Positions 2,818-24,404 of a stretch of 26,035 nucleotides of DNA are shown here, piece by piece. Under the pieces are notes generated by a model. It did not search any database and was not told the origin of the DNA. It saw nothing but the letters and a program-made list of their open reading frames with translations. Every line of letters begins with the position of its first letter. Positions within the stretch are counted from its first letter, which is position 1. The DNA comes from Pigoraptor vietnamica (taxonomy: Eukaryota; Opisthokonta; Filasterea). A program made the translations under genes and the position numbers. The stretch is from positions 1-26,035 of the forward strand of contig CALSCQ010000341.1 of assembly GCA_943704525.1 (NCBI GenBank). The letters run 5' to 3'.

Positions 2818-5800
2818 TGTGTGTGTGTGTGTGTGCGTGAGTGCGCGCGCGTGTGTGTGTGTTCTTGTGAGTGTGTGTGTGTATGGCGGCCCCCGATGCC
2901 AGTGATGTGTGCATGTCCTTCTGCCTTCTGTGTCTGAAATGTTGCACCCTATTCGCAGTGGTACTTTGCTGTTGGCGAGGACCAGCGCAAGGGCCCCTTC
3001 TCCATCGATGACTTCATCACCATGTTCGACGCCGGTCAGCTCAAGTCTGACTCAAAGTGCTGGGCCCAGGGCCTCGAGGGCTGGCGAAAGCTCGCCGATA
3101 TTCCGCAGCTGAGGTGGGGATGACTTGACTGTGTGTCGTGCACTTCTGGCTTCCGAGTGTGGCGTTCCGGGTTTTAGTCGCAGTGTCCTTCCTTCCGCCG
3201 TTTGTTCATGTGCGTGGTTGTGCCCAAGCCACTTGCTCATACTGAATCGCCACCACCCCATGAACCCACTTTTCGCCCTCAGGTGGCAAGTGATGGACAA
3301 GTCGACGCCCGTGCTCAACGAGACGGAGCTTGCAACGCTCGCCCTCCGCACGCTCATCCGCGTCGTCGAGTTTTATCCCACGCGCGACAAGGACGGCGCC
3401 ATCGTGCGCCCTCTCCCGCGTGCGAAGCGGCAGATCTCGGACCCGTCCGTGCTCCCCCATCTCGTCAACCTCTTCCTCACGTTCGACCCGTCGCTCGTCG
3501 AGAAAACGGCGACGCTCCTCCACAACGTCATGCAGGACAACCCCATGATGCCCCGCCTGTTCCTCTCGGGCGCCTTCTACTTTGCCCTCATGTACACGGG
3601 TTCGAATCTACTCCCGATCGCGCGTCTTTTTTCGTACACGCACACGCGACAGGCCTTCCGCGCCGAAGAGGGCCACCGCTCGGTCCTGTCGGCCGCGCTC
3701 CCGGAGGCCATGGTGTGCTTCCTCGAGAACCACGGGCCCGAGCGCTTCTCGGAGATCTTCCTCGGTGACTTTGACACGCCCGAGGCCATCTGGAACCACG
3801 AGATGCGCCGCTTCATGATCAACAAGATCGCCGTGCACCTCGCCGAGTTCACGCCGCGCCTCGTCAGCAACACGCGCGCGCTGTTCCTTCACTGCCCGAT
3901 GGCGACGGTCATTTATCCGCAGCTGGAGCACGAGCTGTTTTGCGGCATCTACTACCTGCGCCACCTCTGCGACATTGTGCGGTTCCCCGACTGGCCGATC
4001 ATCAACCAGGCACGTGCGCCCCCTCCGTACTTCCGCTCGTGTTCTCTGTGGAGGCGAAGAGGGTTTAACCCTGATCCCAGTGGTCTCCTTGCCGTCCCCG
4101 TGCGCGCATCGATCTCTCGTGTCCATCCCTTGTGTGCCTCCATCGTGTGTGTCTTGCCACTCTCGCGCGTTGATGGTGATACCACGACGTGATCCCCTCT
4201 GCTGCCACTACTCGAAAGAGCATCCATTCTGACTGTTACGCACCGTACGCATTCGCCCGCGTAGATCGAGCTGCTCAAGGAGATCCTCGAGGAGTGGAAG
4301 AAGGAGGTCGACAAGAAGCCCGAGGCGCTCAGCGTCGACGACGCGCTCGAACTGCTCAACCTCGAGAAGGGCAAGACGCACGACGACGGCGTGATTCGCA
4401 AGGCGTACTTCAAGCTCGCCCAGAAGTACCATCCGGACAAGAATCCCGAGGGCCGCGACATGTTCGAGAAGGTAATCGAAGACATTCCTGTGCCCTCTCA
4501 CCCTTTGTTTGGCTTCCTCTCTTCACCCATGTTGACACTTTGCGCTTGAATTGGGCGGCTTGCATTTTTTTTCGCTTGCGGCCGCTTTTGCGCCAATGAT
4601 GGCGTCGCCGTCTCCTCCCCTTGCCTCTTCCCCTGTGTGCAATACTCGGTTGAAATTCCCTTTGAATCCCTTGTCGCTGATGCCACAATCTCCTCACCTG
4701 CGAGCACAGGTGCTCAAGGCGTACGAGTTCCTCTGCACGCGCTCGGCTCTCAAGCTGGACGGCCCCGACCCCAACCGCATCGACCTCCTCATCCGCGCCC
4801 AGTCGATCCTCTACGTCCGCCACCCGGACATTCTCGAGCCTTACAAGTACGCCGGTTACCCGATGCTCCTCCGGACTGTCCAGATGGAGACGGCCTACGA
4901 GGACCTCTTCTCGCGCTCGACGCCCCTCCTCCCGGCCGCCTCCGAGCTCGCGTATCACACGGTCAACGTCTCTGCGCTCAACGCGGAGGAACTCCGTCGC
5001 GACGGCGGCATTGAGCTGCTTGCCGAGGCCCTCACGCGCTGCGTCAGCGCCATCTCCCCGCGCACGACCCCCGAGGAACTGTCGGTCGTCGTGTCTGGAC
5101 ACATTCTCAAGTGCTTCGCCGTCTGCGGGCGCTTCCCGGAGTGCCGCGCGCGCCTGCGCGAGCTCCCGCACGTCGTCAAGGACCTCTCGCGGTGCCTGTG
5201 GTTCCGCGGGGCGCCCAAGCTGACGGTCGCCGCGCTCGAGTGTGCCGCGTCGATCGCCGCGGATCAGCTGCTGCAGGACAAGCTCGTCGACAACGGCGCC
5301 CTCTGGCACCTCCTTCTGTATCTGTTCGACTACGACTACACGCTCGACGAGGGCGGCGTGGAGGCGTCTGCGGAGAACAACAAGCAGGAAATTCTCAACC
5401 AGCACGCGCGGCTTGCCCTTCGCGCTCTCGCGCGCATGGGAGGCTACCTCAAGGCGCCCGGGGACGAGACGCCGAAGAACCCGCGCGTGACGACGTCGCT
5501 GCGTGCGCTGATTACGCCGTACCTCGCGCGGCAGCTCGAGAAGGACCAGCCCATGGAAGTCCTCAAGATTGTCTGCAGCAACGCCGAGAACCCCTACCTC
5601 ATCTGGAACAACGGGACGCGCGTCGAGGTCAAGGACTGGCTCGAGAAGCAGCAGGAGTCGGTCGTCCGCCACGGCGTGCAGGACCCCGCCCTCGGCACGA
5701 CGTTTGTGTTCTCGGCCCTCGAGGACGAGCTGCGCGTCGGCGACATTTACATTCGCATCTACAACATTCAGCCGACCTTCCAGCTCGAAGATCCCGCGCT

Positions 5801-7391
5801 GTTTGCAAAGTCGATCCTCGACTACCTCGAGGAGCGGGGCCCGCGCGTTGCCCAGACGGCGGAGGCTGCGTCGTCGGAGGGCGGTGCCGTGGGCGAGCGC
5901 ACCAAGCAGCTCGAGCACGCGCGCATGACGCTCACGGCAATGCGCAACCTCCTCGCGAACAACGCCGGCCTGGAGAAGGGCTTCCTCGGCCGCCTCCCGG
6001 TCCTCTATCCGTACCTCGCGGCGGAAGACGACGGCGGCGTGCAGGTCGCTGCGCTCGAGGTGATTGCGGCGATCACGGCGAATCCCGAGTGCGTCACGGC
6101 GATTGCGGAGGCCGGCATGCTCGGCCGCATTGCGCTCGTCGCGGACAAGGTGACGGCGTCGTACGACCCCATCCTGCGCATCGTCCACCACCTGTCGAGC
6201 AACAACAAGATTGTCGCCGAGGTCCTCTCGAAGGGCGTCGTCCTCTACCTGCTCGAGATGTTCTGCTGTTCGCTCAAGACGCCCATACGCGAGCAGACGG
6301 CCGGCGTGTTTGCCAAGTTGGCGGCCAACAAGCTGCACGGGCCGAAGGTGTCGATCGTCCTCTCAAAGTTCATCCCGGCCGTCTTCCTCGACGCGATGCG
6401 CGAGAACACTGAGGCCGCCGTCAACATGTTCGAGTCGCAGCAGGAGAACCCCGAGCTCATCTGGAACGACAACGCCCGCAAGAAGGTCAAGGAAACGATC
6501 AAGGCCATGCGCGCCGAACTCGCGTCGGAGCAGCGCCGCAACCCTGACTTCCAGTGGAAGCTGTCCGACGACTTTGAGGTCGTGTACGCCGAGCTGCAGG
6601 GCGAGATCCTCATCGGGGGCGTATACCTGTCGCTGTTCGTCAAGAACCCCGGCTGGGCGCTGCGCAACCCGCGCCAGTTCCTCGTCGCCCTCATGGAGCG
6701 CTACGTGCTCTACGTGTCTCGCAAGAGCGCGGACGAGGAGGTCCTCAAGAACCTCTCGGCGGCCATCTGCGGCCTGCTGCGCACGCAGGCGGGCATGAGC
6801 GACCAGGTGGCGTCGATGGGCCACATACCCAAGGTGCTCCCGGCGCTCGAGAACGACAACGTGGTCTTCCGCAAGTCGTGCATGGACATGATCCACCAGT
6901 TTGCCGACTGCGTCAACTGCACCGAGAAGCTCGGCCAGACGCAGTGCATCAAGCCGATGATGAAGGCGATGGACGAGACGCGAGAGCTCGCCGGGACGGG
7001 CGCCGAGGCCATTCGCCGCATGGCCGACAACAACAGCTGCGAGAAGGGCTGCATCGTCGCACAGGCGCTCAAGGCGAACCTCGTCCCCTTCCTCCTCGGG
7101 CTGCTCGAGCGCGGCCTCGAGGTCGTCGAGAACCCCGCGGCGACAAAGGCGCACATTGCCAACGCCCTCAAGAGCCTCGCGAAGGACGTGGTGCACGGGG
7201 AGGAGGTCCAGCGCAAGCTCGACGCGAGCCCTATTTGGGCTGCCTACCGCGACCAGAAGCACGACCTGTTCATCACGGGGACGGGCATTGCCGGCTACCT
7301 CACGGGACCGGTCGCCGCCACCAAGGGCTATCTTACGGCGGGGCCCGCGAACGCGTCTGCCGAGCACCCGCCGCCCGTCGACAACGACTGA
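202..7391 (+). CDS. DNAJC13: RME-8 / DNAJC13 (GRV2) endosomal J-domain protein, 5' partial
   Basis: RME-8 is a peripheral endosomal protein whose J domain recruits Hsc70 to control clathrin and retromer-dependent sorting. My exon model, with every junction kept in frame, is 202-303, 447-1412, 1581-1676, 1865-2133, 2315-2567, 2959-3113, 3283-4009, 4265-4471 and 4710-7391, giving 1,818 residues plus TGA. Numbering from the first visible residue, there is a GYF-like domain at about 563-616 ([16 protein letters not shown]), a J domain at about 878-940 with its HPD at 912-914, and the family's IWN repeats ([37 protein letters not shown]). The C-terminus has the family GYLTGP...GYLTAG...PPPVD ending. 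Similarity to animal RME-8 runs over the whole visible length. Animal proteins are about 2,200 residues, so roughly the first 400 are missing on the left. The intron after 4009 needs a GC donor. Family identification is very secure; exon edges are from reading, not transcripts. Confidence 0.96.
1413..1580 (+). repeat. RME-8 intron with GT-rich simple sequence
   Basis: This intron begins GTGCGTGTGTGAG and ends CGTCGCAG. Positions 1413-1482 are almost entirely imperfect (GT)n, including about nine perfect GT units near 1463-1482. It separates two phase-0 exons, so removal joins ...WRMKQ to EHARTD in frame. Confidence 0.75.
1677..1864 (+). repeat. RME-8 intron with perfect (CA)n microsatellite
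   Basis: The intron starts GTGTGAAG and ends GTGCGCAG. About 1690-1747 is CA-rich, with a perfect (AC)18-19 tract at 1711-1747. Both flanking exons are in phase 0. Confidence 0.8.
2568..2958 (+). repeat. RME-8 intron with compound (GT)n/(GA)n microsatellite
   Basis: This is the longest intron in the gene (391 bp). It starts GTGTGTGCGAG and ends ATTCGCAG just before the GYF-like exon. From about 2568 to 2883 it is nothing but GT and GA dinucleotide blocks that alternate several times, including a long GA tract at 2763-2814. Confidence 0.85.
4010..4264 (+). other. RME-8 intron with apparent GC donor (GC-AG)
   Basis: The conserved sequence ...FPDWPIINQ must be joined to [14 protein letters not shown], which fixes a phase-0 junction. 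The exon ends AACCAG at 4009 and the intron would begin GCACGTGC; the acceptor is CCGCGTAG at 4264. The nearest GT donor (4014) would leave four extra exon bases and break the frame. Confidence 0.75.
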
Positions 7392-8062: not shown

Positions 8063-11000
8063 CTAGTTGAAGCTGGCGCCCGCGCCGAGGAGGACGGCCG
8101 TCGTGACGGGGATGCTCTTGCCCGAAAGCACAATGCTCCACACGCGTCCGACAAAGCCCGTGTTGGTCGACGAGCCCGGCACCGTCGCAAACGACGAGCC
8201 TCCGACCCACAGGCCGGCGACGTTGTCGACTGAGACAGCAGGACTGTCGTCGTTCGTCGCGTCCGACGAGCTCTCCGCGCCGCCAGCGACGGCGAGGTTC
8301 ACGTGCGACCTGCCGCCGACGACCGACGCCGTGACCACCACGTTGATCGTGCCGGCGCCGAGGACGTTGGCACCCGTCACAGTGTGTGCGTCGGCGTTGC
8401 CCGTGCTCCACGTGAACGTGAGGGCACCCCCGACAATCTCGAGGACCGCAAAGTCCTTGCCATCGACCGACGAGGCCGCAAAGACAATGCCGTTGGCCGT
8501 CGCCGTGAGCGAGAGCGAAAGCGTAAAGGCGCTGCCGAGCGAGCGGGGAAGGAAGCGCGCAAACGAGGGGCTGGCAAAGTTGAGCGCCGTGCCGCCGCCA
8601 ACCTCGACCGCCTTGACCCTGGGGTCCGAGACCTCGACGACGGCACCGCCAACGGCCGCGTCGAGCGCGCGCGAGGCGTCGCTGATCGAAACGCCAAAGA
8701 TGTAGCCGACGTACGCGGGGTTGTCGGCGACGGCGCGGGGGATGAACTGGAGGTTCGACGCGGGGTTGAAGCGGCCAAAGTAGAGCGGGCCCGTCGCATC
8801 AATCGTGCCGGGGCTGCCGACCTTGACCTGAATGTTGAGGTTCTGCGGCGAGCCGCCCACGTGGTTGCCTTCAGCATCCTTGAGCGTGATCGTGACGACG
8901 TTGGCCGCAATCGTGAGGGCGACGCTGTACTCCTTGCCGTCGTTGACGCTGACCGACGAACGCCAAATGGTCGCGCCGTTGCACGCAGTGAAGTCATCGT
9001 TGCACGTGCCGTACCCGGCGGGCGCAAACGAGAACGTGAGGCGGCCCTGGTAGAGGTAGATGAGCGCGTGGTCCTGGAACGTGCCCTGGCGGAACGTGCC
9101 AAACAGCGTGCCCTTCGTCGCCGTCGTGAAGAACGAGAACTTGGCATTCCATGCCAGCGCGGCCGTGAAGGCGCTCGGGGCCGTGAAGCCGACGAACTCG
9201 CTGCCCGTGAAGGCGTACGCGTCGCGGAACTGGCATCGCGCGCCGCTGAGGTTCGGCGGGCACCCAACGCACTTGTAGCCCTCGGCGTCGCCGGCGTCCG
9301 CCTGGCACGTGCCCGCAGAGCAAGGGTTGCTGTCGCACGCGTTGAAGACCGTCGAGCACGTCTTGCCGCGGAAGCCGGGCGCGCACGAGCACTCAAAGTC
9401 CGTGTCAGAGCTGGCGCACGTGGCGCCGTTGAGGCAAACGGCGACGCCGCCGTCCGTGCATTTGTCCACGACGGCGACGCAGTCGTCGTCCGTCTCGACC
9501 TCGTTGGCGTTGCAGTAGCATGCAAAGTCGCCGCCGCCAATGTCGCGGCAGTGCTTCTTCCCGCACGGGTTCCCGGTGCACGAAGACTCCGTCTCGAGGG
9601 CATCGAGCCGAGCCTTAATGCCGTTGATCGCCGTGCGAATCGGGGCGAGCGCAGCGTCAATCTGGCCTGCGATGCGCGCGTCCAGTCCATCGGCCATGTG
9701 TTCAAGACCGTCCACGGCGACGCTAATCCCGTGCACCTGGTCGCCGAGGGAGGCAATGTTGAGGTTGGCAGCCGTAATGGCTCCCTCCGCCGTCGTAAGG
9801 CGTCCATCCAGCGCCGCGTCCATGCCGCTGTTCTCGAGGGCGGCGACGCGGTGGTCCAGGTCCGCAATGTCGCCGGCGGCGTCGGCAATCGCCGCCGCAT
9901 TCATCGTGTTGGCGTCGCGGATGCCCTTAATGTCCACCTTCGAGAGCGTGTCGATCGACGACGCCAGGCCCGAAAACTTGTCGTACAGATCCGCCACCTG
10001 GCCGTCAATACCGTTCAAGTGGTTGCTGTTCGTGTCGACGCGACCGTCGAGTTGCGACAGGTGGGCGTTGATGCCTGCCAACGCGTCCTGCAGCACGGTA
10101 ATCGCGCCGTCGACTGCATTAAGGTGCCCGCCGACGGAGCCGAATCCTGCGGCCATGTCGCCCCGAATGTCGGCAAGGTTCTGGTTAACCTCGTCCGAGA
10201 GGTCGCTAATGGCCTGCGCAAAGCCGCTCGCAAGGTCAATCGCAGACGTGGCCTTGTTCGACGACGCTGTCGCCTTTGTCTCAATCGCCGTGATGCGGTT
10301 GTTGAGGACCGACCCGTCGAGGCCCACAAACGTGACAAATGTCGCGTTGAGCATCGTAAGCCCGTCAATCGCCGTCGCGAGGCGGTTCTCGGCGGGGATG
10401 ACGCGGAGGTTGAGCAGATCGAGCGTGCACGAGTCGCACGGCGTGCAGACGACGTACAGGTTGTTCTTGCGGCCGTCGCCGTTGGCGTTCACCGTCGACC
10501 TCTGGTACCCAATCTTGCACGTGTCGCACCCGTCGCCCGTGTAGCCCTCCTTGCATGCCGTGCACTTGTAGTCGCCGGGGTTGGGGTTCGCGCCAACGCC
10601 GACGCACTTGTCGCCCGCAATGCCGAGCGCGACGCCAACGCGGTCCACAGACTGCCCGTTGCAGTCGCACTTGAAGCACTTGTTGGGGTTGCCGCTGCCG
10701 TCGAGGACGGTGCGGTCCTGGCGCTTAGCGTTGCCGTACCAGCCGTCCTTGCACGTGCCGCAGTCGTCGCCCGTCGTCTGGCCGATGCAGTTCTGGCACT
10801 TGGGCGAGAGCAGCGACGTGACGCAGTTGTCGTTCGTGCCGTACAGGTTGATGTTCGAGTAGCACACGCAGTCGTGGCACACGTCAAAGCCACCGCCGAG
10901 CGGCGTCGTGGGAATGCCGTAGTAGCGCTTGGCGTTGCAGCCCGTGCACTGGCGGCCAGTGTACTTGGACTCGTCGTTGATGAGGAAGCCGTCCTTCCAG

Positions 11001-14000
11001 TTCGTAACCTTGTCCGTGTTCTCCTGCTCGCACGCGCACCGCACGTACTTGAGGGCGACCGACGCGTCCGTCTTGGCCTTCTCGGCGTCCGACCCGGGGC
11101 CCGCGCCCATGCTCAGGTACTCGAGGAAGCACACGTTCGTCAGCGTCGCGTCAGCGCCATGCTCGCAGAGCTGCAGGGGGCTAATCTTGTTCTCCTTGTT
11201 CTTGCCGGCGTTGCGACCGGCGAGGGGCAGCTCGTGGCCGTAGCAGTCGCACTTGCGGCACGGAATGCCCTTGCTCGGCTCGCCATAGTACCCGGCGGTG
11301 CAGCGCTCGCAGCGGTCGCCAGTCGCGCCCGTGGGGCAGTTCGTGCACTTGCCGTTGGTCATCGTGCACGTCGCGCCGGCGCCGACGAGGAAGCACTGCT
11401 GCGAGCACGCGACGCAGCCCTTCGTCACGTCCTGCGTCGTCTTGGGCGAAGACGGCACCTGGCCGTAGAGGTCGCACGTCGGGAACGGGTTATAGCCCTC
11501 GCTGTTGCGGAAAAAGTTCGTCTTGCACGTATCGCAGTTGCGGTTGCCCGTGGCCGTCATGTCGTTCGCCGTGTTGTCGCCGCAGCTGGTGCACTCTCCC
11601 GTCTTGGCGTCGCACGTCGTAGAGTGCGTGTTGCACTGGCACAGGACGCACGGCGTCTTGAGCAGAGTCGCCTCGTCCGCCGCGGTGAAAGCGTAGTTCC
11701 ACGGCTTCGTGGCGCCGAGGAAGGCGACCTTCGAGAGGTCGCGCTTGTAGTTCACCTTGCACGTCTCGCAGTGGTCGCCGCCAGTGTTCGACGTGGCGTC
11801 GCAGCTCGAGCACACGCTAGACCACTTGTCGCACGTGTCGCTCCATCCGTTGCAGCTGTCCGTGCGGCAGTTCTTGCACACGTGAACGCCCTTCACGAGC
11901 TTGTCGCCGGTGGCACGGGTCGGCTGGCTGAAGCACCCGGTACCGCACTCGTCGCACTTGGCGCCGGTCGTGCATCCCTTGCAGTTGCACGCGCCGCCGA
12001 CGGGGTTGCACGTGTCGTCGCCGTTCGGGAGCTTGTCGCCGTTGCCAGTGCAGCTGCACGGCTTGCAGTCGTCCGTCACGAGGTCCGTCATGAGGCGGTA
12101 GAAGCCGTCCTTGCACGTCTCGCACTTCTCGCCGCGCGTGTTGCCCTTGCAGAGGCCGCCGAAGTTGCCGCTCTCGTCGTCGCAGTTGCCCGTCGTGGGG
12201 TTGCAGTAGTCCAAGTCCTTGTGGCTGTTGCAGTTGCACGGCTTGCACGGTTCGCCGGCAGCCTCCTCCGCAGGCGTCCGCCAGAAGCCCACCTTGCACA
12301 CGCACTTGTTAATGTCCGGATTCAGCTCGACCTGCTTGTCCGCGTCGCAGAAGCACTTGCCTCCCTCGGGATCGCACGTCGTCGTCGCTTCCGTGTCCCA
12401 TCCGTAGCCGCGGTCGTTCAGCTTTGTCGGCAGCGCAGAGAGGCCGCACTGGCACTCGCCGCAGTTGTCGCGCGGCGAAGTGTTCGTGGTGCCGGGAAGG
12501 AAGGGGCGGTAGTAGCCGGGCTTGCAGTACTCGCACGAAGAGCCGAACGTGTTGTCGCGGCACGGCTGGTCTCCGCCGTACCAGTCCTGCATGCAGTCGC
12601 CGCCGACGGCGTTGCACGACTCGGCGAGGCTGTCGACGCCCGCGGGAACGCCTCCGGCCAGGTCCGAAAACTTCTTGTGGCCGTTGCAAGCGCAAGCAGA
12701 GCACACCTTGCCGTCGAGGCCAGTGCCGTCTTCGCTGTGGTACCCAAACTTGCAGTTCTGGCAGAAGGCGCCGTCGACGTTGTGCGTCGGGTCGCACGCG
12801 CAGCCGCAGCCGTCCGCGTTGCAACGGTCCTTGCCGCCGGTAAATCCGATCGAGTGCTGGTTGCACTGGCACGCGTAGCAGATAGACTCGAGGCACGACT
12901 CGTCGTCGTCGTCGTAGCAGAGCGGGCGGCAGAAGCCGTCGACGCACATGTCGCAGTGGTCGCCCTGCGTGTGCGTGTCGGGATGGCAGTCGCAGACGCC
13001 AGTCAAGACGTCGCAGGGGTCCGTGAGCGAGGGCTCGACCTCGTCATCCCACTGCGAGCGCGCGTGGCCGTAGCACTGGCACTGGCGGCAGACCTCGCCC
13101 TCGCCAAAGAAGAGCTCGTAGACGTCCGCAAAGCCGTTCACGCCGTCGTCAGAGTCGTCGGGCACCATGTAGCGGTTCGTCTGCGCGGGCGTGAGGTCAT
13201 AGTCCCAGTAGAAAAACTGGAGGTTGCGAATTTCCTCGGGCGTCACAATCGGAATCGAGGGGTTGCCGATGTTGGCGTACGTCACGTCGGGGAAGCCGTG
13301 GTTGACGACCGACGTGGTCGCGAAGTAGCCGACCTCGCACACGTCGCACTTGATGCCCGCCGTGCGGTGCTGGCAGTTGACGAGCGCGTCCTTGCCCATA
13401 GACTGCGCGGGGTAGTTCGTGCCAAGCGACGTCGTCGCCGTAAACGCAAGGTTCTCGCCGTCGCCCGTGCCCACGTTGAGGGCGCAGTAGCCGTTCGTCG
13501 AGTCGCACGCGCCAGAGTGGCCGTTGCAGGGGCACATGCCGTCCACCGTGATCCGCTCAAAGATAAAGAAGCGCTGGTCAATGGCAACCTTGGCCTGGTT
13601 CGCGAGAATGCCGTCAAACTCGATGCGGAGGTAGCGCCAGCCGAGCATGCCGTCGCGGATGCCACCGGGGAACGTCTTCGAGCGCGTGTAACCGATGAGG
13701 TTGGCCGAAATGGGCGCGTCGCGGCAGGGGCTGGGGATGAACGAGCGGCAGCGCGTGCCCTCCGTAGAGTCGAGCGCCGGCGTGAGCGCAACGTACGCGT
13801 CGCCGGCGTTCAGCTTGACAGAGACGCGGAACGGGCGCTGGCTGTTGCGGCCAACATCGCCGAGCGTGTAGTAGGCCGTCGCCGCCGAGAATCCGTTGAG
13901 CGAAAACTCGCCGCCCATGTCAATCTCAAAGCGGCGGTACGTCGGGTCGCTTGGGAACGACTGGCACTGCGAGGGCGTGCTGATGTCCGTCTGCGACGCA

Positions 14001-16015
14001 GGCTTGCCAAACGAGCGCGGCGGGCACTTGGTCGACGTGTATTGCATCGTCTTGTCCGTGTACGAGGTGAAGAGGAAGTACGTCGCCCGGTTCGTAATGT
14101 CAAACGCGAGGGCGTCCGACTTGGCCGTCACGTACGAGAAGACGACATTCTGGACCACCGTAAAGTCGCTCGAGAGCGTGATGGCGGCGGCGAGGTACTT
14201 GTTCGAAAAGGCGGCCACGGCAGAGTTGAGCGACTTGAGGACGACGCGGCGCTGGTACGGCACGTCGAGCGTCGGCGTTCCGTCAACGTCCTCAATGGCC
14301 CAGCGGGACGCAAGGTTGAGCGTGTCGGCGGGGGCGACGGCGACAAAGCCGTTCGTGTCCGTGCGCGTCATGACATACGAGTTGTCAGAGTCGAGGAGAG
14401 TGCAGTACGTGGGGCCGGCCGTGGTCGTGCCCGTCGTGAGCGAGCCCACCGTCGCCGCCGTGAAGATGCTCGCGCTGCCGGCGCCGTTCGCCTTGCCGTT
14501 CCAGTTGACCGCAGCCACAATGTCCGCAATCGCAATCGGCTGGCCAGTGCGGTAGTTGATGGCATACACGTCCACCTCGTAGGGGCCGCTCGAGATCGCG
14601 GGAACAGACGACGTAATGATCACCTTGAGGTCAAACGGCGCGGGCGTAGACTTGCCGTCGTCCATGCGCGCCTTCAGCGCGGCCGTGAGCGTCGTGACAA
14701 TGTGCGACGAGCGCGTGGCGGCGTCAGAGTAGCCGGTACCGTCAAACTGGAGGACGACGTTCTCGCAGACGACCGTGAACCACTGGTTGCCAAAGTCCTT
14801 GACGCTCGTGACTTGGCTGGGAACGGCGTTGCGCTTGAGAGCCATCGTGCCGCCGTTGTCCGTGTAAACGGGCGCCGTGAGGTAGAGGCGCGTGCCGACG
14901 GCGCCCGTGACGACGACCGAATACACGTAGCGCTCAATGGCGGGCCAGTCGTTCGTCGCGTGCCAGAATTCCTTGACCGACTTGCCCTCGAGAATGTTGT
15001 CGATGCTCTCAATGGGGAACGCGCGGAGGCGGCTCAGCTCAATCTGAATCTCGCTCGACCAGTACGTGGCCCCGCCGCGAACGACCTTGGCCGAGAAAAA
15101 GTACTTGCGCCAGTTCGAAAACGCGCGCTCGATCACGACCTGCTGCTTCTGGAGGCCTGCGGCGCCAGACGTGAGGATCGAGACGGGCGGCGAGTTCGTC
15201 GGCGACTTCGTGATCGCGTGGTCCGTGAGTTGCGTCTTCGTCGAGTCCTTCTCGTGGCGGAAGTACCACGTAATCTCAGTCGCGAGAATGGGCTCCGCGA
15301 GAACAGTGCCGTCGCCGTTGGCTTGCATCGTGTACGCCTGTCCTTCGATCGGGGGGTTGCCGACGCGCGAGATGCTGACTGGGAACACGCACGACGAGCC
15401 GGACGCCGTGTAGCCCTCCTCGCACGCCTCAGACTGGCCGTCGGAAGTGCAGCTGACGGCACCCGCGTCGTTGCAGAGGAAGCGGTTAACGTTGAGCGTG
15501 TACGAGCGCACCACCTTCGACGGGTCCGACTCGGCGTTCACGACGACGACAAAGTAGCGCTTGCCCTTCTCGGCGCGGAAGCGAATGTACTTGCAGCCAT
15601 CGTCCGTGTGCGACTTGATGCCGGCGGGGCACACGGGGGCATCGCCACAGCTAGGCGCCTCATACACAACAATGCGAAGGACGCCGTCCGCAGCAGCGCG
15701 GTCGCAAAAGTCAAACTCGTAGCCATAATCGTCGTCGGGACGGAACGAGTGGAACGACGTAAAGCGATTCGTATCGAGGTTGAACTGTGAGATGCAGCCA
15801 GACAGCGGGCCGCCGTCCGAGAGGTCGATGTTCGCCGCATCGTTTCCAAAGTCAACAAAGCCCTGGAATGTGAAGGTGTTTGCGGGCGCGCCGTTCGCCA
15901 GACCCGCTTCCTTCTCCGGAATAGCGTCCTCACACCGCGCATTCGGCGAGCTGGGCGCCGAGGCGCGGCCAGCCGCAAGAAGCGCGGCGAAAACGACGAC
16001 CGCGAAAACGCGCAT
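8063..16015 (-). CDS. Secreted laminin-alpha-like protein: LN-like, LE repeats, coiled coil, EGF, LamG
   Basis: One intronless frame encodes 2,650 residues. The start is the ATG at 16015, with A at -3. It opens a signal peptide (hydrophobic VFAVVVFAALLAAG, likely cleaved after GRASA); the open frame extends upstream without an ATG. Approximate order: 20-640, beta-rich region of unknown family, its first part perhaps jelly-roll/PPC-like; 655-826, LN- or discoidin-like domain (FEIDMGGEFSLNGF ... FFIFERITVDG); 828-1863, about 13 laminin-type EGF modules (CNCNSHKDLDYC, GEKCETCKDGFYR); 1876-2144, alanine/leucine heptad region with an RGD at 1951-1953; 2146-2261, three EGF modules; 2265-2650, two LamG-like domains. 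There is no transmembrane segment or GPI-type tail, so it should be a secreted matrix or adhesion protein. Domain identities are secure for LE, EGF and the coil, good for LamG and moderate for LN. Orthology to animal laminins is not established, and other LE/LamG matrix proteins (agrin-, perlecan- or usherin-like) are the alternative. Confidence 0.9.
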   Translation of the reverse strand: MRVFAVVVFAALLAAGRASAPSSPNARCEDAIPEKEAGLANGAPANTFTFQGFVDFGNDAANIDLSDGGPLSGCISQFNLDTNRFTSFHSFRPDDDYGYEFDFCDRAAADGVLRIVVYEAPSCGDAPVCPAGIKSHTDDGCKYIRFRAEKGKRYFVVVVNAESDPSKVVRSYTLNVNRFLCNDAGAVSCTSDGQSEACEEGYTASGSSCVFPVSISRVGNPPIEGQAYTMQANGDGTVLAEPILATEITWYFRHEKDSTKTQLTDHAITKSPTNSPPVSILTSGAAGLQKQQVVIERAFSNWRKYFFSAKVVRGGATYWSSEIQIELSRLRAFPIESIDNILEGKSVKEFWHATNDWPAIERYVYSVVVTGAVGTRLYLTAPVYTDNGGTMALKRNAVPSQVTSVKDFGNQWFTVVCENVVLQFDGTGYSDAATRSSHIVTTLTAALKARMDDGKSTPAPFDLKVIITSSVPAISSGPYEVDVYAINYRTGQPIAIADIVAAVNWNGKANGAGSASIFTAATVGSLTTGTTTAGPTYCTLLDSDNSYVMTRTDTNGFVAVAPADTLNLASRWAIEDVDGTPTLDVPYQRRVVLKSLNSAVAAFSNKYLAAAITLSSDFTVVQNVVFSYVTAKSDALAFDITNRATYFLFTSYTDKTMQYTSTKCPPRSFGKPASQTDISTPSQCQSFPSDPTYRRFEIDMGGEFSLNGFSAATAYYTLGDVGRNSQRPFRVSVKLNAGDAYVALTPALDSTEGTRCRSFIPSPCRDAPISANLIGYTRSKTFPGGIRDGMLGWRYLRIEFDGILANQAKVAIDQRFFIFERITVDGMCPCNGHSGACDSTNGYCALNVGTGDGENLAFTATTSLGTNYPAQSMGKDALVNCQHRTAGIKCDVCEVGYFATTSVVNHGFPDVTYANIGNPSIPIVTPEEIRNLQFFYWDYDLTPAQTNRYMVPDDSDDGVNGFADVYELFFGEGEVCRQCQCYGHARSQWDDEVEPSLTDPCDVLTGVCDCHPDTHTQGDHCDMCVDGFCRPLCYDDDDESCLESICYACQCNQHSIGFTGGKDRCNADGCGCACDPTHNVDGAFCQNCKFGYHSEDGTGLDGKVCSACACNGHKKFSDLAGGVPAGVDSLAESCNAVGGDCMQDWYGGDQPCRDNTFGSSCEYCKPGYYRPFLPGTTNTSPRDNCGECQCGLSALPTKLNDRGYGWDTEATTTCDPEGGKCFCDADKQVELNPDINKCVCKVGFWRTPAEEAAGEPCKPCNCNSHKDLDYCNPTTGNCDDESGNFGGLCKGNTRGEKCETCKDGFYRLMTDLVTDDCKPCSCTGNGDKLPNGDDTCNPVGGACNCKGCTTGAKCDECGTGCFSQPTRATGDKLVKGVHVCKNCRTDSCNGWSDTCDKWSSVCSSCDATSNTGGDHCETCKVNYKRDLSKVAFLGATKPWNYAFTAADEATLLKTPCVLCQCNTHSTTCDAKTGECTSCGDNTANDMTATGNRNCDTCKTNFFRNSEGYNPFPTCDLYGQVPSSPKTTQDVTKGCVACSQQCFLVGAGATCTMTNGKCTNCPTGATGDRCERCTAGYYGEPSKGIPCRKCDCYGHELPLAGRNAGKNKENKISPLQLCEHGADATLTNVCFLEYLSMGAGPGSDAEKAKTDASVALKYVRCACEQENTDKVTNWKDGFLINDESKYTGRQCTGCNAKRYYGIPTTPLGGGFDVCHDCVCYSNINLYGTNDNCVTSLLSPKCQNCIGQTTGDDCGTCKDGWYGNAKRQDRTVLDGSGNPNKCFKCDCNGQSVDRVGVALGIAGDKCVGVGANPNPGDYKCTACKEGYTGDGCDTCKIGYQRSTVNANGDGRKNNLYVVCTPCDSCTLDLLNLRVIPAENRLATAIDGLTMLNATFVTFVGLDGSVLNNRITAIETKATASSNKATSAIDLASGFAQAISDLSDEVNQNLADIRGDMAAGFGSVGGHLNAVDGAITVLQDALAGINAHLSQLDGRVDTNSNHLNGIDGQVADLYDKFSGLASSIDTLSKVDIKGIRDANTMNAAAIADAAGDIADLDHRVAALENSGMDAALDGRLTTAEGAITAANLNIASLGDQVHGISVAVDGLEHMADGLDARIAGQIDAALAPIRTAINGIKARLDALETESSCTGNPCGKKHCRDIGGGDFACYCNANEVETDDDCVAVVDKCTDGGVAVCLNGATCASSDTDFECSCAPGFRGKTCSTVFNACDSNPCSAGTCQADAGDAEGYKCVGCPPNLSGARCQFRDAYAFTGSEFVGFTAPSAFTAALAWNAKFSFFTTATKGTLFGTFRQGTFQDHALIYLYQGRLTFSFAPAGYGTCNDDFTACNGATIWRSSVSVNDGKEYSVALTIAANVVTITLKDAEGNHVGGSPQNLNIQVKVGSPGTIDATGPLYFGRFNPASNLQFIPRAVADNPAYVGYIFGVSISDASRALDAAVGGAVVEVSDPRVKAVEVGGGTALNFASPSFARFLPRSLGSAFTLSLSLTATANGIVFAASSVDGKDFAVLEIVGGALTFTWSTGNADAHTVTGANVLGAGTINVVVTASVVGGRSHVNLAVAGGAESSSDATNDDSPAVSVDNVAGLWVGGSSFATVPGSSTNTGFVGRVWSIVLSGKSIPVTTAVLLGAGASFN

Positions 16016-17660: not shown

Positions 17661-20600
17661 ATGGCAGCGGAGAGCCCCGGTGAAGCGCCGCTCTTCAGCG
17701 TGCGCATTGTTGAGGCTGATTTTTATCTCTCGCCTCCCCTGCGCGGACTTGACCCCGTGAGCGATGCTGCTGACGCACCCTCACACCCCCGTCGAAAGCC
17801 CCTCCGCCTGCCGGTGATTCGCATCTATGGCGCAACACCAGCGGGACAAACAGTGTGCGCGCACGTGCACGGCGTCCTTCCCTACTTTTATGTTCCGTAC
17901 AATGGGCCGCGTGACAGTGTGGAGGCCGCCCGCGAGCACTGCGCGCGCCTCGCCGCTAGCCTCGACCACGCGCTCGACGTGTCTCTCCAAAGGGAGATCC
18001 CGATGGGGGGCCATGTGTTTTCTGCGTTTGTTGTGCGCGGCATCCCGTTCTATGGCTATCACCCGGGCGAGGCGTTGTTCGTTAAGGTCCATCTCCGCAA
18101 CCCCGTCCTCGTCGCGCGCGCGGCGTCGGTTCTACAGACGGGCGCCGCCATGGGGTGCGAGCTACAACCGCACGAATCGCACATTCCGTACGTGCTGAAG
18201 TTCATGATTGACTATAATCTCTTCGGGATGAACTTTCTCGACGCGCGCCGTGTGCGCTTTCGGCGGCCTTTCCTCCCCTCGGTGCGCGCCGTTGGCCCGC
18301 GCGGAGATCCCCCTCCCATGCCTCTGAGTGTGGACGTGCGTGCGTCGGGCGGTTCGCTTGGCGGTGAAAATAGGCCCAAAACATGGTGGGATGACCATTC
18401 GGCGGCGTCGCTGGCGTCGTTTTCTCACGACGACGCCATGCGGCAGAGCACGTGCGCGCTCGAGGTCGACATTCAAGCCTCCGACATCTTGAACCGGCGT
18501 CTCGTGGACGTGGCCACGTTCACGGCCATGCGCGCGCCCGCGGACACGCAGCGTCCCCAGCCAAGCGAACTGCAGCTCGTGCGCTCGCTTGCGGCGATGT
18601 GGGAGGAGGAGCGGCGGCGCCGGAGGTCGATGGGACTGTCCTCGCAGCCGACGCAGGCGCCCACGCAAGCGCGCGAAGACCCGACGCCGTGGGACCGCGA
18701 AGAGGCTGTGCTCGACAAGCTCCGCGCTCACGTGACGGCGGACCACGTGACGGAGCCCGAGGATGGCGCGGCCCGAATGGAGGAGGGGGCGCTCGCGGCG
18801 GATGGGCCGGACGGTCACGTGCCACTGGCTTTTGCGAGCCCGCCTTTCCGCACACTCGGGAGTCCGCTGCAGCCTTTCGATCGCCCCTTTCGTCGGTCGC
18901 CGCGCGAGGATGAGAGGAGCGAAGCCTTTGCGAACGACGTTGACGACGACAGCGCCGTCGGGCTCTTCGAGCACGCCATGCGCGCCGCGCACCTGCTGTG
19001 CTCCCAAGGTGATGAAGGTATGGGCGAGGGCGCACGTGGGGACCGTGGGGACCGTCTCGTTGCCGCGACACAGTCCAACGAACCGATTGACCACGGCCAC
19101 TGGGACGCGCGTGCACGACGCGGGACCACCATCACAGGCGCCGTAGGTCACGTGGCGGGTGCGTCGACTGCGCTGTCCGTCCAAGCAGACGTCGACGAGC
19201 GGCTTCTGGGCATGTCGCGCGCGGATGTGGAGAGAGAGACCGAGGAAATGCTGCGCGCGATGGCCGACGCCACGTGGGACGACGCCGAGGAAGAGGCGGG
19301 CGACGCAGCTGGCAGAGGAGGCGTGTTCGGAGAGCCCGACGAGCACGCGGACGACGCTATTTTTGGGGGTCTTGTGGGCGCGGAGGGCGAAAGCGTCGGC
19401 GTGGGATTTCGCCGCATGCCCGAGGCGGGCGAGGGTGCGGCTTTGGCGTTCGAAGAGGACGAGTGGAGCGGAGGACATGACGGCCGTGACAGCGACGACG
19501 AGCTCCTCGGACGCCTAAGCCTCTCCGGGTTCGAAGCGAAGGGCGGGTGGGGCAGTCACGTGCCGCAGTACGACGGGGCGGGCGACGAGGAGCTGCCGGA
19601 CCACATGACGAGAACGTTTGCTGGCAAGGCGAAGGGGCGCGCGTCGAGGCCGAACACCGTGAAGGTGCGGAACGTCAGTGCTGTTCGCCTCGATGGGTCG
19701 AAGGGCTGCGATGAGCCCGGCTCCCCTCACGTGACGAGGATACCCGCCACTGAGCTCGGCAGCGACGAACTCACGCTGCCCCGCCTGTCGATGTGGTCGC
19801 CGGTTCACTCGGAGGGCGAAGGAGGCGGCGACCACGCTCAAACGCGCGCGATATTGCCCAATGGGCTTTCGCCGCCGCGCATCCTTCCGTCGCCCACGTC
19901 GTCTCCGCCTCCGATAGGGCGTTCTGTCCCAAAGATGAGCACTCTCTTTGGTTGGGTCGAGGCCTCTGCGAGTGGAGGCGAGGAGGCTCGCCGCTCTCCC
20001 CTGTGGGTGCCAGAGTCGCCCGTGCGCCCAGCGCAGGGAAACGTGGAAGCGGCAGAGTCGTACGTGAGGGGCACCCCGGATGTGGACGCGGACGCTGCTG
20101 TGGGGTGGTCGGCCCAGTCTGTTCCCGCGGCAGAGGCACCGCCATTCGACGCTGTCATGGCAACGCCGGAGGATGAGCTGCGGGCGACGCATTCCGAGGC
20201 GGCGGCAGGGTACGTGTGTGCGACCCCCGATGCTAGCGGGCACGTGGCCAGTGTGGACGCGATGGAGCGCTCGCAGGCGCCCCGCGAACAATCCCCGCGT
20301 GTTGATACCGTAGGACGGCCGATGGGCACGTGCGACGCTGTAGAGGCTGCGGTGGCTGCGGTGGACGTTGGCCTCGTCACCTTGGATCGCGTGCGCACGG
20401 CGGGCGACGGCGCATCTCGTGACGGCGACTCTGTGGCCGTGTCTGCCTCTCAAGAGTGCGACCGATCGCTTCGCAGCGACGCCGCGTCCATCAACACGGC
20501 CTCCACGGCGCTTGTTCCGGACGGGCAAGTCCCTTCGCGCGCCGACTGCACGCCCGCGTCCCTTGGCGGCGACGTACGGGCAACGTCCGCCGGCACCCCT

Positions 20601-23600
20601 CTGTCTGCGCGACACTCGTCGAGTGCCACTGGCGCCGTGACGACGTCCTCCGCAAGCAGTGGACCGGCGAACCGCGTACTTTCCGGCGTTGCGGTCACGT
20701 GCGTCGATGACTGTGCGTGGCTGGCGGCGTGGGATGCAGCGAGCGGCCTCAGAGCCCGCGGGGGAACGCTGCGAACGCCGGCGCTTCTCCCCCCTCGCCC
20801 TTCCGACTGTCCAAAAGACATGCGCGCTCTTGAGCTGCCCATGGAGATACACAGGGAGCCGTTTTACAGCAACCCAAGCGATGTCCCGCCGCGCGTCGTG
20901 GCGCTTGGAGGGCACGAATTCAGGTTCCGCCCTCTGGTTGTCGGCACTGTGAAAGAGTTCCACGAGGGCGGCGGCGACGGAGCGCGCACGGGGGACGCGG
21001 GGCAGAAGGGCCCGCGTGTGTGGGTGCCAGCGCGATTGCCGCCGACCCCTGCGTCTGTGCGTGCGTGGATGGAGGAGCGGCTGTTACGCGACGGGGGCGT
21101 GCCTTCTGCGACGCACGTGACCAAGGAGGAGCCCAGTCGGGATGGGAGCGGCGAATCGGTCGGTGCGCGTGGCGAGCGCAAGAGGGCCGCAAGTCCACCG
21201 GCAGGCAAGACCTCGAAGCGAATGGCACTGGACGCACCAGAAGTGAAGGGAAAGCGTGCGATGGACGTCGACGTGCGGCCTGTCAATACTCGCGTTGAGC
21301 CGCACTCGAACGCCAAGGCTGTCCCGCAGGCGGCCGTCGCCCCTTCGCCCGATGCTCCGTCGGACGGGGCACGGCCATCGCTGGTCTCTGTAATCGAGGG
21401 ACCCACCCTGTTGCATTCCTACGGATGCAAGGTCTCGGGCGGTTACGGTTCCGCCGGGCGTCGCCACCAGGACGTGCAGCACGTGTGCGCGGTGTTCGTC
21501 GAAGTGCACGCGGCATCGCGCGGGGCGCTGCTCCCGGACCCCCAACAGGACGCGGCCGTCGCCGTATTTTACTGCGTGCGACGCGACGACCCGCTCGCCG
21601 TGAATGGCGCCCGCGTGGACGTGGGTGTCATTGCTGCGGACGGCGGGTCCTCGAGTGGCTACGTGGGAGGCATGCCGTGGGAGAGCGTGCAGGACGAGTC
21701 GGCGCTGTTCGCGTGTTTCATCCGCCGTGTTCGTGAATGGGATCCGGACATCCTCGGGGGGTTTGAAGTCCAGGTGTCGTCCTTCGGCTTCCTGGTCGAT
21801 CGCGCCAAGCGGATCGGAATCGACCTCTGTTCCGAGCTCTCGCGCGTTCCGAACCTCGGAGACTCTGGGTTCGACAAGGAGGAGGACCCCTACGCCTACG
21901 CGCACACGAGTGGGATGAAAATCGCAGGGCGCGTCGTCGTCAACGCGTGGCGCATCGCGCGTGGGGAGGCGGCCCTCAACATCTACACGTTCGAGAACGT
22001 CGCGTTCCATGTTCTCCGTCGTCGCTATCCCTCGTACGACCAGAAAACGCTGCACGGGTGGTGGACGGGCGCAGACGACGCCGGTCTTGCCGTCCCCGTC
22101 GATGGCCCGCAGGGGGAACAGCCGCGCCGCCCGCCACTGCGCGCAAAGGGCCTGGACCGTTGGCGCGCTGTTCGGCACTACTGCGAGCGCGTGCGGGGGA
22201 CGTGCGACATACTCGAGCACTTCAATTTCATCGGGCGGACGGGAGAGCTCGCGCGCGTGTTTGGGATCCTCTTCAACGAAGTGCTGCTGCGTGGGTCGCA
22301 GTTTCGCGTCGAGTCGATGATGTTGCGAATCGCAAAGCCGATGAATTACGTCGCCGTGTCGCCGAGCAAGCGGCAGGTGTCGTCCATGCGTGCGCCAGAG
22401 TGCGTGCCGCTCATCATGGAGCCGCACTCTCGCTTTCACACGAGCCCCGTCATCGTGCTAGACTTCCAGTCCCTCTACCCGTCGGTCGTCATCGCGTACA
22501 ATTACTGCTACTCGACGTGCTTGGGGAGAGCGACCACGCGGCAAGAGAGGCAGCTCGGAGTTGGCACTGTCGTCACGGATTCGCCCGAAATGCGGAGAAT
22601 ACTGGAACGGGGTCGTCGTGGCGGAAAGAAAGTGGGCGCCGCGGACGCGGACGAGGAGAGCCGGCATGCATCAGAGGAGAGCAGCGCTGATGTTGCGGAG
22701 GGGGGTCTCCGCGTCTCTCCCAACGGCATACTCTTCTGCAGCCGCAACGTGCGCGTCGGCGTGCTGCCCCGGATGCTCGAGGAGATACTGCGCGCGCGTG
22801 TGATGGTGAAGGATGCGATGAAGCGGCACAAGGGCGACGCCGGGCTGTACCGCCTGCTGGACGCGCGACAGCTGGGACTCAAGATGATCGCGAACGTGAC
22901 GTACGGGTACACCTCAGCCACGTTCTCTGGGCGAATGCCGTGCGTTGAAATTGCGGACAGTATTGTCATGACGGGCCGGCGCACTTTGGAGAGGGCGATC
23001 GATATGGTGAACGGGGAGAAAGAGTGGGGCGCGAAGGTCGTCTACGGCGACACGGACAGCATGTTTGTGCTCGTCCCAGGAGCGACGAAGGAGCGCGCGT
23101 TTGAGGTTGGAAGGCAGATTGCGGAGCGTGTGACGGCCGCGAACCCATGGCCCGTCAAGCTGAAATTCGAGAAGGCGGGTGTCTACTGTGCATTGGCGGG
23201 CGCAGTATCTCTGCGTCTGTTGGTTGTTGTGGCAAGACAGTTCGTGTTTCTCACACACCCAACCCAATCCCGCTCGCCTGTTCGTCACGTGAGCTGAGAC
23301 CCTTCGTTCGCGGCGCAGGTGTACCACCCGTGCGTCCTCGAGGCCAAGAAGCGTTACGTCGGCGCAAAGTACGAAAGCCCCTCGCAGTCAGAGCCCGATT
23401 TTGACGCTAAGGGCATCGAGACGGTGCGCAGGGACACGTGCCCGGCCGTTGCGAAGATGCTCGAGCGCTCTCTCAAGATCGCGTTCCGCACGCGCGACCT
23501 CTCCCTCGTCAAGGAGTACGTTGTGCGGCAGTGGACGAAGCTCGTCGAAGGGCGCGCGTCGCTCCAGGACTTTGTCTTTGCGAAGGAGATGCGCGAACTC

Positions 23601-24404
23601 GAGGGCTACAAGGACCCTCTCATGCAGCCCGTCGCTCTTCTCGCTCTGCGCGCGCGCGAAAAGGACCCCCGTGCAATGCCCCGTCGAGGGGAGCGCGTGA
23701 GGTTCGTCGTCGCCCACGGCCCTCCCAACTCGCGCGTGATCGATGGCGTGCGCCGGCCCGAGGAACTGCTCGCTGACCCATCGCTTCGCCTCAACGCAAG
23801 CTACTACATCGATCACCAGATCGTGCCGGCGCTGGAGCGCGCGCTTGGCGTCGCAGGTGCGGACATCCGAGCCTGGCGTGCGGAAATGCCGCGTGTGCAG
23901 CGTGCAGTGCCTGCGCAGCGGCCGGTCGCCAAGCCGGTCGCGGTATTTCCGCCGCGTGCGAAGCGGCGCCGCATTGACGAGGGCACGCGCACACTGGCGC
24001 ACTTCTTCGCGTCTGTGCACTGCGCGGCGTGCGACGCTGTGTGCGGCAGCGCGTCCCGCCTGCCGACGAGACCGTTCTCCTTCGGCGTGGACGGGGACGG
24101 TCGCGAAGGGGCCATCGAAGCCCGACTCCAGGAACTCGGCGTAAGCCTGTGCGACGCGTGCCAACAGTCGCGGCAGGCGGCGTCGCTTGCACTTGTGCTG
24201 CGTGCGCAGACCATCGAGCGCGCTGCCACTCAGCTCATGTCCGTGTGCGTCGAGTGTACCGGGGACGCCGAGCTTGGCGCCGCATGCGTGTCGCTGGACT
24301 GCCCCGTCTTCTACGAGCGCAAGAAGAACGCGCAGCGACTCCCGGAGGCTCAGCGGTGTCGGGAGGCGGCGAATGTCTTGGACGACTTTGAGTCCGCGCT
24401 GTGA
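17661..24404 (+). CDS. REV3L: REV3, catalytic subunit of DNA polymerase zeta
   Basis: REV3 is the nuclear B-family polymerase that extends primers past lesions in translesion synthesis, working with REV7 and REV1. Two exons, 17661-23174 and 23319-24404, give 2,199 residues; the ATG sits in CACAACATGG and starts a family-typical N-terminus (FSVRIVEADFYLSPPLRGLD). The N-terminal domain covers about 11-205, ending HIPYVLKFMIDYNLFGMN. A long acidic, low-complexity middle follows (about 205-1060), then FYSNP at 1068-1072 and a degenerate exonuclease-like domain from about 1275. Polymerase motif A is DFQSLYPS at 1601-1608, motif B is KMIANVTYGY at 1741-1750, and motif C is YGDTDS at 1795-1800 with D1797 and D1799. 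The C-terminus has CysA (C2073, C2076, C2116, C2119) and the iron-sulfur-type CysB (C2148, C2151, C2161, C2166). All core residues are present, so it should be active. Length lies between yeast (~1,500) and human (~3,130). The intron has an apparent GC donor. Confidence 0.96.
23175..23318 (+). other. REV3 intron with apparent GC donor (GC-AG)
   Basis: The family sequence around the junction is KLKFEK joined directly to VY-PCVL. That puts the donor after GAGAAG at 23174, so the intron begins GCGGGTGTC; the acceptor is CGGCGCAG at 23318. A GT donor at 23181 would also keep frame but would insert two residues (AG) into a conserved segment. The intron has no other notable content except TCACGTGA at 23285-23292. 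Confidence 0.65.

Follow-up and report, generated by a model that had tools for sequence, protein, structure and literature searches.

A gene that resembles those of animal laminins lies on the minus strand of a 26,035-nucleotide stretch of the genome of the filasterean Pigoraptor vietnamica (contig CALSCQ010000341.1 of assembly GCA_943704525.1; this whole stretch is called the window). As predicted from the sequence, its product is a secreted and oligomeric protein of the laminin type that belongs to the extracellular matrix or acts in adhesion, a reading to which we assign a probability of roughly two in three. It is carried by the order of the parts, namely an LN-like domain (after the laminin N-terminal domain) running into an array of laminin-type EGF modules (LE), a coiled coil with cysteines at its start and two laminin G domains (LamG or LG), and by eight relatives elsewhere in the genome (32.5 Mb, 1395 contigs), in which the LN-like/LE junction recurs. 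An initial annotation of the window had favoured common ancestry with laminins; we consider it likely that the LN-LE module has a common origin with that of animal laminins and netrins, and extend this to the whole LN-LE-coil-LG chain tentatively.

The reading frame has the coordinates first described and runs from an ATG at 16015 to a stop codon at 8063-8065 with zero internal stops. Its parts are given below; labels such as C567 and C1349 denote contigs of the same genome and stand for the relatives found on them.

8063..16015, minus strand: whole coding sequence, 2650 amino acids plus stop in a single unbroken frame; the C567, C1349 and C347 relatives align nearly end to end
15956..16015, minus strand: predicted signal peptide, about residues 1-20, from hydrophobicity and sequence
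15377..15955, minus strand: N-terminal head, residues 21-213 (193 residues), no family assigned
14081..15376, minus strand: conserved region, residues 214-645 (432 residues), alignable in nine of nine genes
13535..14080, minus strand: LN-like domain, residues 646-827, from profile evidence, the start of the stretch being our choice
10439..13534, minus strand: 13 LE modules, residues 828-1859, from Pfam, cysteine parse and PDB matches to laminin gamma-1 and netrin-1
10427..10438, minus strand: C-x-x-C pair, residues 1860-1863, immediately ahead of the coil in nine of nine genes
9581..10426, minus strand: coiled coil, residues 1864-2145, from the heptad score
9227..9580, minus strand: three EGF modules, residues 2146-2263, each with six of the 18 cysteines
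8066..9226, minus strand: two LamG domains, residues 2264-2650, from Pfam and an LG profile compared with PDB

Domain evidence along the chain

Most of the LN signal in the protein comes from the junction of the LN-like domain with the LE array. A profile of this junction, made from the window stretch together with the eight relatives in the genome and including the first LE cysteines, gave 23 distinct matches to E = 10 when compared with all PDB sequences. The top 21 (E 2.7e-4 to 0.14) are laminin or netrin chains throughout (laminin alpha-1, alpha-5, beta-1 and gamma-1, netrin-1, netrin-4, unc-6, netrin-G1 and -G2), their placement at the LN-LE junction being judged by position, with the alignments examined for five; the last two are unrelated dehydrogenases. 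In hhalign comparisons with a profile of six animal LN domains, for which column shuffles and the reversed profile served as null, the family profile with the LE start scored 67.4 (maximum of 150 shuffles 21.8; reversed profile 24.1). The LN core without the LE start scored 32.5 (maximum of 150 shuffles 28.8; reversed profile 14.9), and none of 11 control segments drawn from the rest of the family sequence scored above 19.6 when compared with the LN core. When the last 45 columns were cut from this core, the score was 23.0 at a probability of 4.4%, none of 100 shuffles reached it (maximum 21.5), and the piece still aligned is a collinear LN strand, IDMGGEFSLNGF against LDLRQVFQVAYI. On the strength of the junction, core and cut-profile scores, we infer that LN homology is well supported at the LN-LE junction and weak but collinear upstream of it.

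The LE array that follows holds 13 modules when counted by cysteine pattern, in agreement with the earlier estimate (the parse itself gave 12 pieces, two of them with two modules each and one module split over two), and Pfam finds EGF_laminin (1.7e-15) and EGF_LMN_ATRN (6.4e-17) in eight stretches each. Straight after the array comes the coil, with cysteines at its start: the C-x-x-C pair reads CDSC in four genes and CPQC, CPQC, CPTC, CSSC and CPDC in the others. Animal laminin chains also carry interchain-bonding cysteines at the start of the coil. The long coil expected from the initial annotation stands out with a heptad z of 11.7, its score being reached by 0 of 500 shuffles in our own scoring scheme; four other stretches of the protein gave z values from -1.2 to 2.4 (300 shuffles each), and the eight coils scored in the family, that of C323 excluded, gave 7.2 to 11.8.

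Between coil and LG, the three EGF modules noted at the outset are recovered by their cysteines and match Notch and Delta-like EGFs in PDB. Both C-terminal LamG domains are likewise recovered, with Laminin_G_1 at 5e-17 in two stretches (62.8 bits against a curated cut-off of 24). An LG profile built from the window gene, C567, C1349 and C347 matched 13 distinct PDB sequences to E = 1, every one of them named as a LamG protein, including neurexin-1, laminin alpha-1 (3.5e-6) and alpha-2, agrin, CELSR1 and an 'LG3 peptide', which we take to be perlecan; for the window gene, a grouping with unrelated lectins was not seen. LamG is above the curated cut-off in seven of the nine genes (window, C567, C1265, C222, C1306, C47 and C323), with one stretch in C47 and one in C323, where it lies in a separate downstream frame. 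At this last locus (L037:1849-4047), the LamG piece is followed by a 733-residue open stretch in another frame.

Towards the N-terminus, a scan of the window protein for hydrophobicity only placed the strongest 19-residue segment at residue 3 (mean 1.86), where a signal peptide had been proposed; the runners-up both lie in the second LamG domain (1.50 at residue 2549 and 1.49 at 2625), below the value of about 1.6 that is commonly taken to mark a membrane segment. Secretion, as predicted from the hydrophobic N-terminus, is thus supported. Over residues 1-213, identity is 51% with C567 and 28-29% with C1349 and C347. In the nine-gene alignment, the relatives are 17-75% identical to the window gene across region 214-645, which gave nothing significant against PDB (best E-value 0.33) and no Pfam family above the cut-off.

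A family of nine genes and the divergence of its coils

Searching the genome with the whole protein revealed relatives on C567 (67% identity), on C1349 and C347 (35-36%), and on C1265, C222, C1306, C47 and C323; in addition, C515 matched in the EGF region. The LN-like stretch of C47, used as a query up to E = 1, found nine places, which are the same nine genes; the count of nine accordingly refers to genes with an LN-like domain found from one query. Each of the eight relatives lies on a separate contig, and in the LN-like stretch seven of them share no more than 24-34% identity with the window gene. Because all eight share the LN-LE junction and three can be aligned over almost their whole length, the domain layout is more than a chance arrangement. 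The layouts of C1306, C47, C323, C222 and C1265 were pieced together across likely introns, since these genes are read in several frames. Beyond this genome, five pattern matches in viral contigs and 17 in genome contigs were found, none of which was confirmed by tblastn. LE-containing frames were also noted outside the nine-gene family, at L001, L002, L005 and L029 and on contigs C583 and C834; one, on C18, is 4129 amino acids long.

Two duplicate pairs within the family diverge very unevenly along their length. Between the window gene and C567, identity is 82% in the LE array, 71% in the part before it, 53% in the EGFs, 53% in LG and 28% in the coil; between C1349 and C347, the corresponding values are 89, 79, 72, 55 and 35%. 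Alignments of shuffled coils, 30 per pair, averaged 26% identity, so the coil value of the window/C567 pair falls within the shuffle range (single shuffles up to 35%) and that of C1349/C347 lies above all 30 (maximum 30%). Despite this low identity, the four coils (window, C567, C1349 and C347; loci L021, L022 and L023) can be aligned along their full length, they measure 284-301 residues and they keep their ends (CDSC, a GLDGSVL-like motif and a final L..LE). We also considered a swap of coils between relatives and set it aside: compared mutually, the four are 25-35% identical and none is close to another. Given the absence of a close coil among the four, together with the alignment along the length and the conserved ends, fast divergence of the coil fits better than a swap. 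The pattern points either to a constraint on heptads and length alone or to a pressure to choose partners.

The ratio of non-synonymous to synonymous substitution rates (dN/dS) over the whole gene is 0.46 and 0.48 in the two pairs. In the coil it is near 1 on an unreliable alignment, and no selection is claimed. The synonymous rate is lowest in the LE array in both pairs, which could reflect gene conversion there.

How far the laminin plan extends

The plan of an animal laminin alpha chain, with which the protein had been compared from the beginning, is kept in part. The LN-like domain, LE array, coil and LamG follow one another in the same order as in laminin alpha-1, alpha-2 and alpha-5, the LN-LE junction matches alpha-1 and alpha-5, and alpha-1 is among the matches of the LG profile. 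Set against this are a number of results that weigh against the laminin-type reading, and the foremost of them concern the LN-like domain. It had been thought to follow the signal peptide; instead, it is internal, starting some 625 residues past that peptide, behind the 193-residue head and the 432-residue region, and not at the mature N-terminus. It differs from animal alpha chains also in that nothing in it clearly corresponds to the cysteine-rich N-terminal part of LN, across which the global alignment gives little support. The curated Pfam model Laminin_N matched neither the window protein nor any of nine members scanned singly, and found no match genome-wide in a search run without a positive control; an LN-type domain running into LE is recognised by profile comparison and not by this model. 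Deprived of the LE start, the junction profile lost all its LN matches in PDB and kept the two dehydrogenases, hhalign gave the LN core a probability of 37%, and the score of the reversed junction profile (24.1) counts against the laminin-type reading as well. Two single-sequence structure models, one restricted to the LN-like domain and one that also took in the stretch upstream, were unusable (mean predicted local distance difference test, pLDDT, 37 and 33). A fold search with the first of these unusable models returned 1502 matches to E = 10, none at 0.001 and the top ones mixed, with a laminin beta-2 LE5-LF-LE6 chain at rank 10 (template modelling score, TM, 0.22). The proposal that the domain before the LE array has an LN fold is favoured by profile evidence, mostly at the LN-LE junction, and by neither Laminin_N nor the structure models.

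Other departures from the plan lie further along the chain. Laminin_B (L4) is not one of the 11 Pfam families reported for the window protein to E = 1, and the animal coil models Laminin_I and Laminin_II are not listed for it either; in two relatives they appear far below the cut-off, Laminin_II in C1349 (0.093) and Laminin_I in C222 (0.63), among other generic coil models. The window coil comprises about 285 residues, and animal laminin coils are roughly twice as long. Unlike animal alpha chains, the protein has three EGFs between coil and LG and two LG stretches in place of five. LamG is below the cut-off in C1349 (0.043) and absent by Pfam from C347; alignment of either with the LG region of the window gene nonetheless gives 26% identity. 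Laminin_G_1 ranks first among the LG models in the window gene and C567, and the general concanavalin-like Laminin_G_3 does so in C1265, C222 and C1306, where Laminin_G_2 is also above the cut-off. The shared part does not begin in C1265 and C222 until about residue 1585 and 1526, respectively, of the frame piece read, and an integrin alpha model (a single model, searched without a positive control) had no match in the genome.

An alternative is that LE rods, coil, EGFs and LamG were assembled independently behind a generic beta-sandwich domain, the single domains being homologous to those of laminins and the chain not. The change of LamG type within the family, the other LE-rich frames in the genome, the extra domains ahead of LN, the faint LN signal in the absence of LE and the missing Laminin_B all suit such convergent shuffling. 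A shared order of four elements is nevertheless much to ask of chance, and the LN-LE junction match is specific, with an upstream strand that is collinear, though weak; we regard convergence as unlikely while taking it seriously.

Somewhat further from favour stands a homo-oligomeric surface lectin, or an adhesin for prey capture or substrate attachment, which would be like laminin in build only and whose LamG and head domains would recognise glycans on food or substrate in place of a matrix of the cell's own. Heads and LG domains are less conserved than LE between the relatives, no clear LG-less partner occurs among the nine genes found, and the coil has weak PDB matches to the reovirus sigma-1 protein (E 0.0015 and 0.0065), all of which would agree with an adhesin. 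It leaves the LN-LE junction unexplained, and yet such a role would be compatible with a protein of the laminin type. That an animal laminin gene arrived by horizontal transfer or contamination, as the likeness to animal alpha chains in layout might suggest, is scarcely credible in view of the eight relatives on separate contigs, seven of them so divergent in the LN-like stretch, the lack of a Laminin_N match, the extra domains, and the presence of REV3 and RME-8 on the same contig (the origin of these two genes themselves was not examined).

Both neighbours lie on the plus strand. REV3, the catalytic subunit of DNA polymerase zeta, extends over 17661-23297 and resumes in a second frame at 23319-24404, probably being split by an intron near 23300; pieces of RME-8 (DNAJC13) are found at 369-1424 and 4551-7391 (RME-8_N 8e-135 and 1.6e-11). 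A eukaryotic source, as first assumed, is supported by these genes being read in several frames and by integrin beta in the genome. Exon 1 of the EF-1alpha gene has a canonical look, weak evidence against Thecamonas as the source, a dual-EF species with an EF-1alpha that is reported to be divergent (PMC3699394, in excerpt). Two 18S patterns had no match, and a single weak match in a search for TyrRS proved on reading to contain no TyrRS.

Proposed assembly, possible receptors and the age of laminin chains

Integrin beta was found at 2.1e-51 on C661 (L041), with more loci above the cut-off on C928 (L042) and C829, where one piece contains a stop. The reading frame includes DxTxSMxDD, which we take to be the integrin beta motif. 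By eye, the frames on C661 and C928 run on into a cysteine-rich, EGF-like stretch. An integrin beta is a possible receptor for the laminin-like chain.

Polymerisation in animals is mediated by the LN domains, and receptors are engaged through the LG domains (PMC11260871, in excerpt). Three chains of the P. vietnamica protein, from one gene or several, might zip together through the coil and be locked by interchain disulphides of the C-x-x-C pair. The LamG end would then bind glycans or receptors of the cell surface, for example the organism's integrins, the LE arms would hold out the LN-like domain and the other head domains towards molecules nearby, and the assembly could serve as a coat on the surface, as a glue or as a network. 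Among the nine genes, from a search confined to chains with an LN-like domain, there is no clear beta- or gamma-like chain. Since none of them clearly lacks an LG-like end either, the family may represent a state without the animal division of labour into alpha, beta and gamma chains.

A bolder version, which we put forward as possible though on balance doubtful, is that the whole laminin-type chain of LN, LE, cysteine-locked coil and LG predates animals, each chain bearing its own LG and forming trimers without alpha/beta/gamma specialisation, with the coil as a fast-changing partner code. After duplication, the arms would stay alike while the coil diverged until the duplicates no longer mixed.

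Known systems resemble the chain in parts. Netrins share the LN-LE junction and the LE modules and have, to our knowledge, no coil or LamG. Neurexin, agrin and perlecan share LamG (neurexin, agrin and the LG3 peptide match the LG profile), and we know of no LE-plus-coil chain behind an LN domain in any of them. The literature is cited here in excerpt. Capsaspora CAOG_07351 combines LamG and a signal peptide in an integrin-bearing protist, and such a LamG protein is upregulated together with the integrin adhesome; no LN-LE-coil-LG chain is described for it in the excerpt (PMC3870316).

Published accounts, as far as these excerpts go, disagree on the age of laminins. One finds no secreted laminin in choanoflagellates or Capsaspora and terms laminins a metazoan innovation (PMC4582122), whereas others report laminin-related genes in several protists and a laminin architecture in choanoflagellates (PMC5395295), or list Laminin_N under Choanozoa in a domain survey (PMC6792448); in Creolimax, no laminin-containing gene was found according to the excerpted account (PMC4739763). 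Among the open-licence literature matches listed, covering titles and the starts of abstracts, no protist LN-LE-coil-LG family is described. Protist laminin-related genes are thus already in print (PMC5395295, in excerpt), and the LN-LE-coil-LG family appears new as a variant.

A laminin-like gene in a filasterean bears on the question whether the chain design of basement membranes, of which laminin is the main building block, predates animals. A family of nine genes with LN-like domain, LE array, coil and mostly LG, together with integrin beta in the same genome, makes the age of laminins testable, and the duplicates offer a natural case of coil divergence. If the coil does act as a partner code, it would be a visible model of how the heterotrimer specificity of laminins could have begun.
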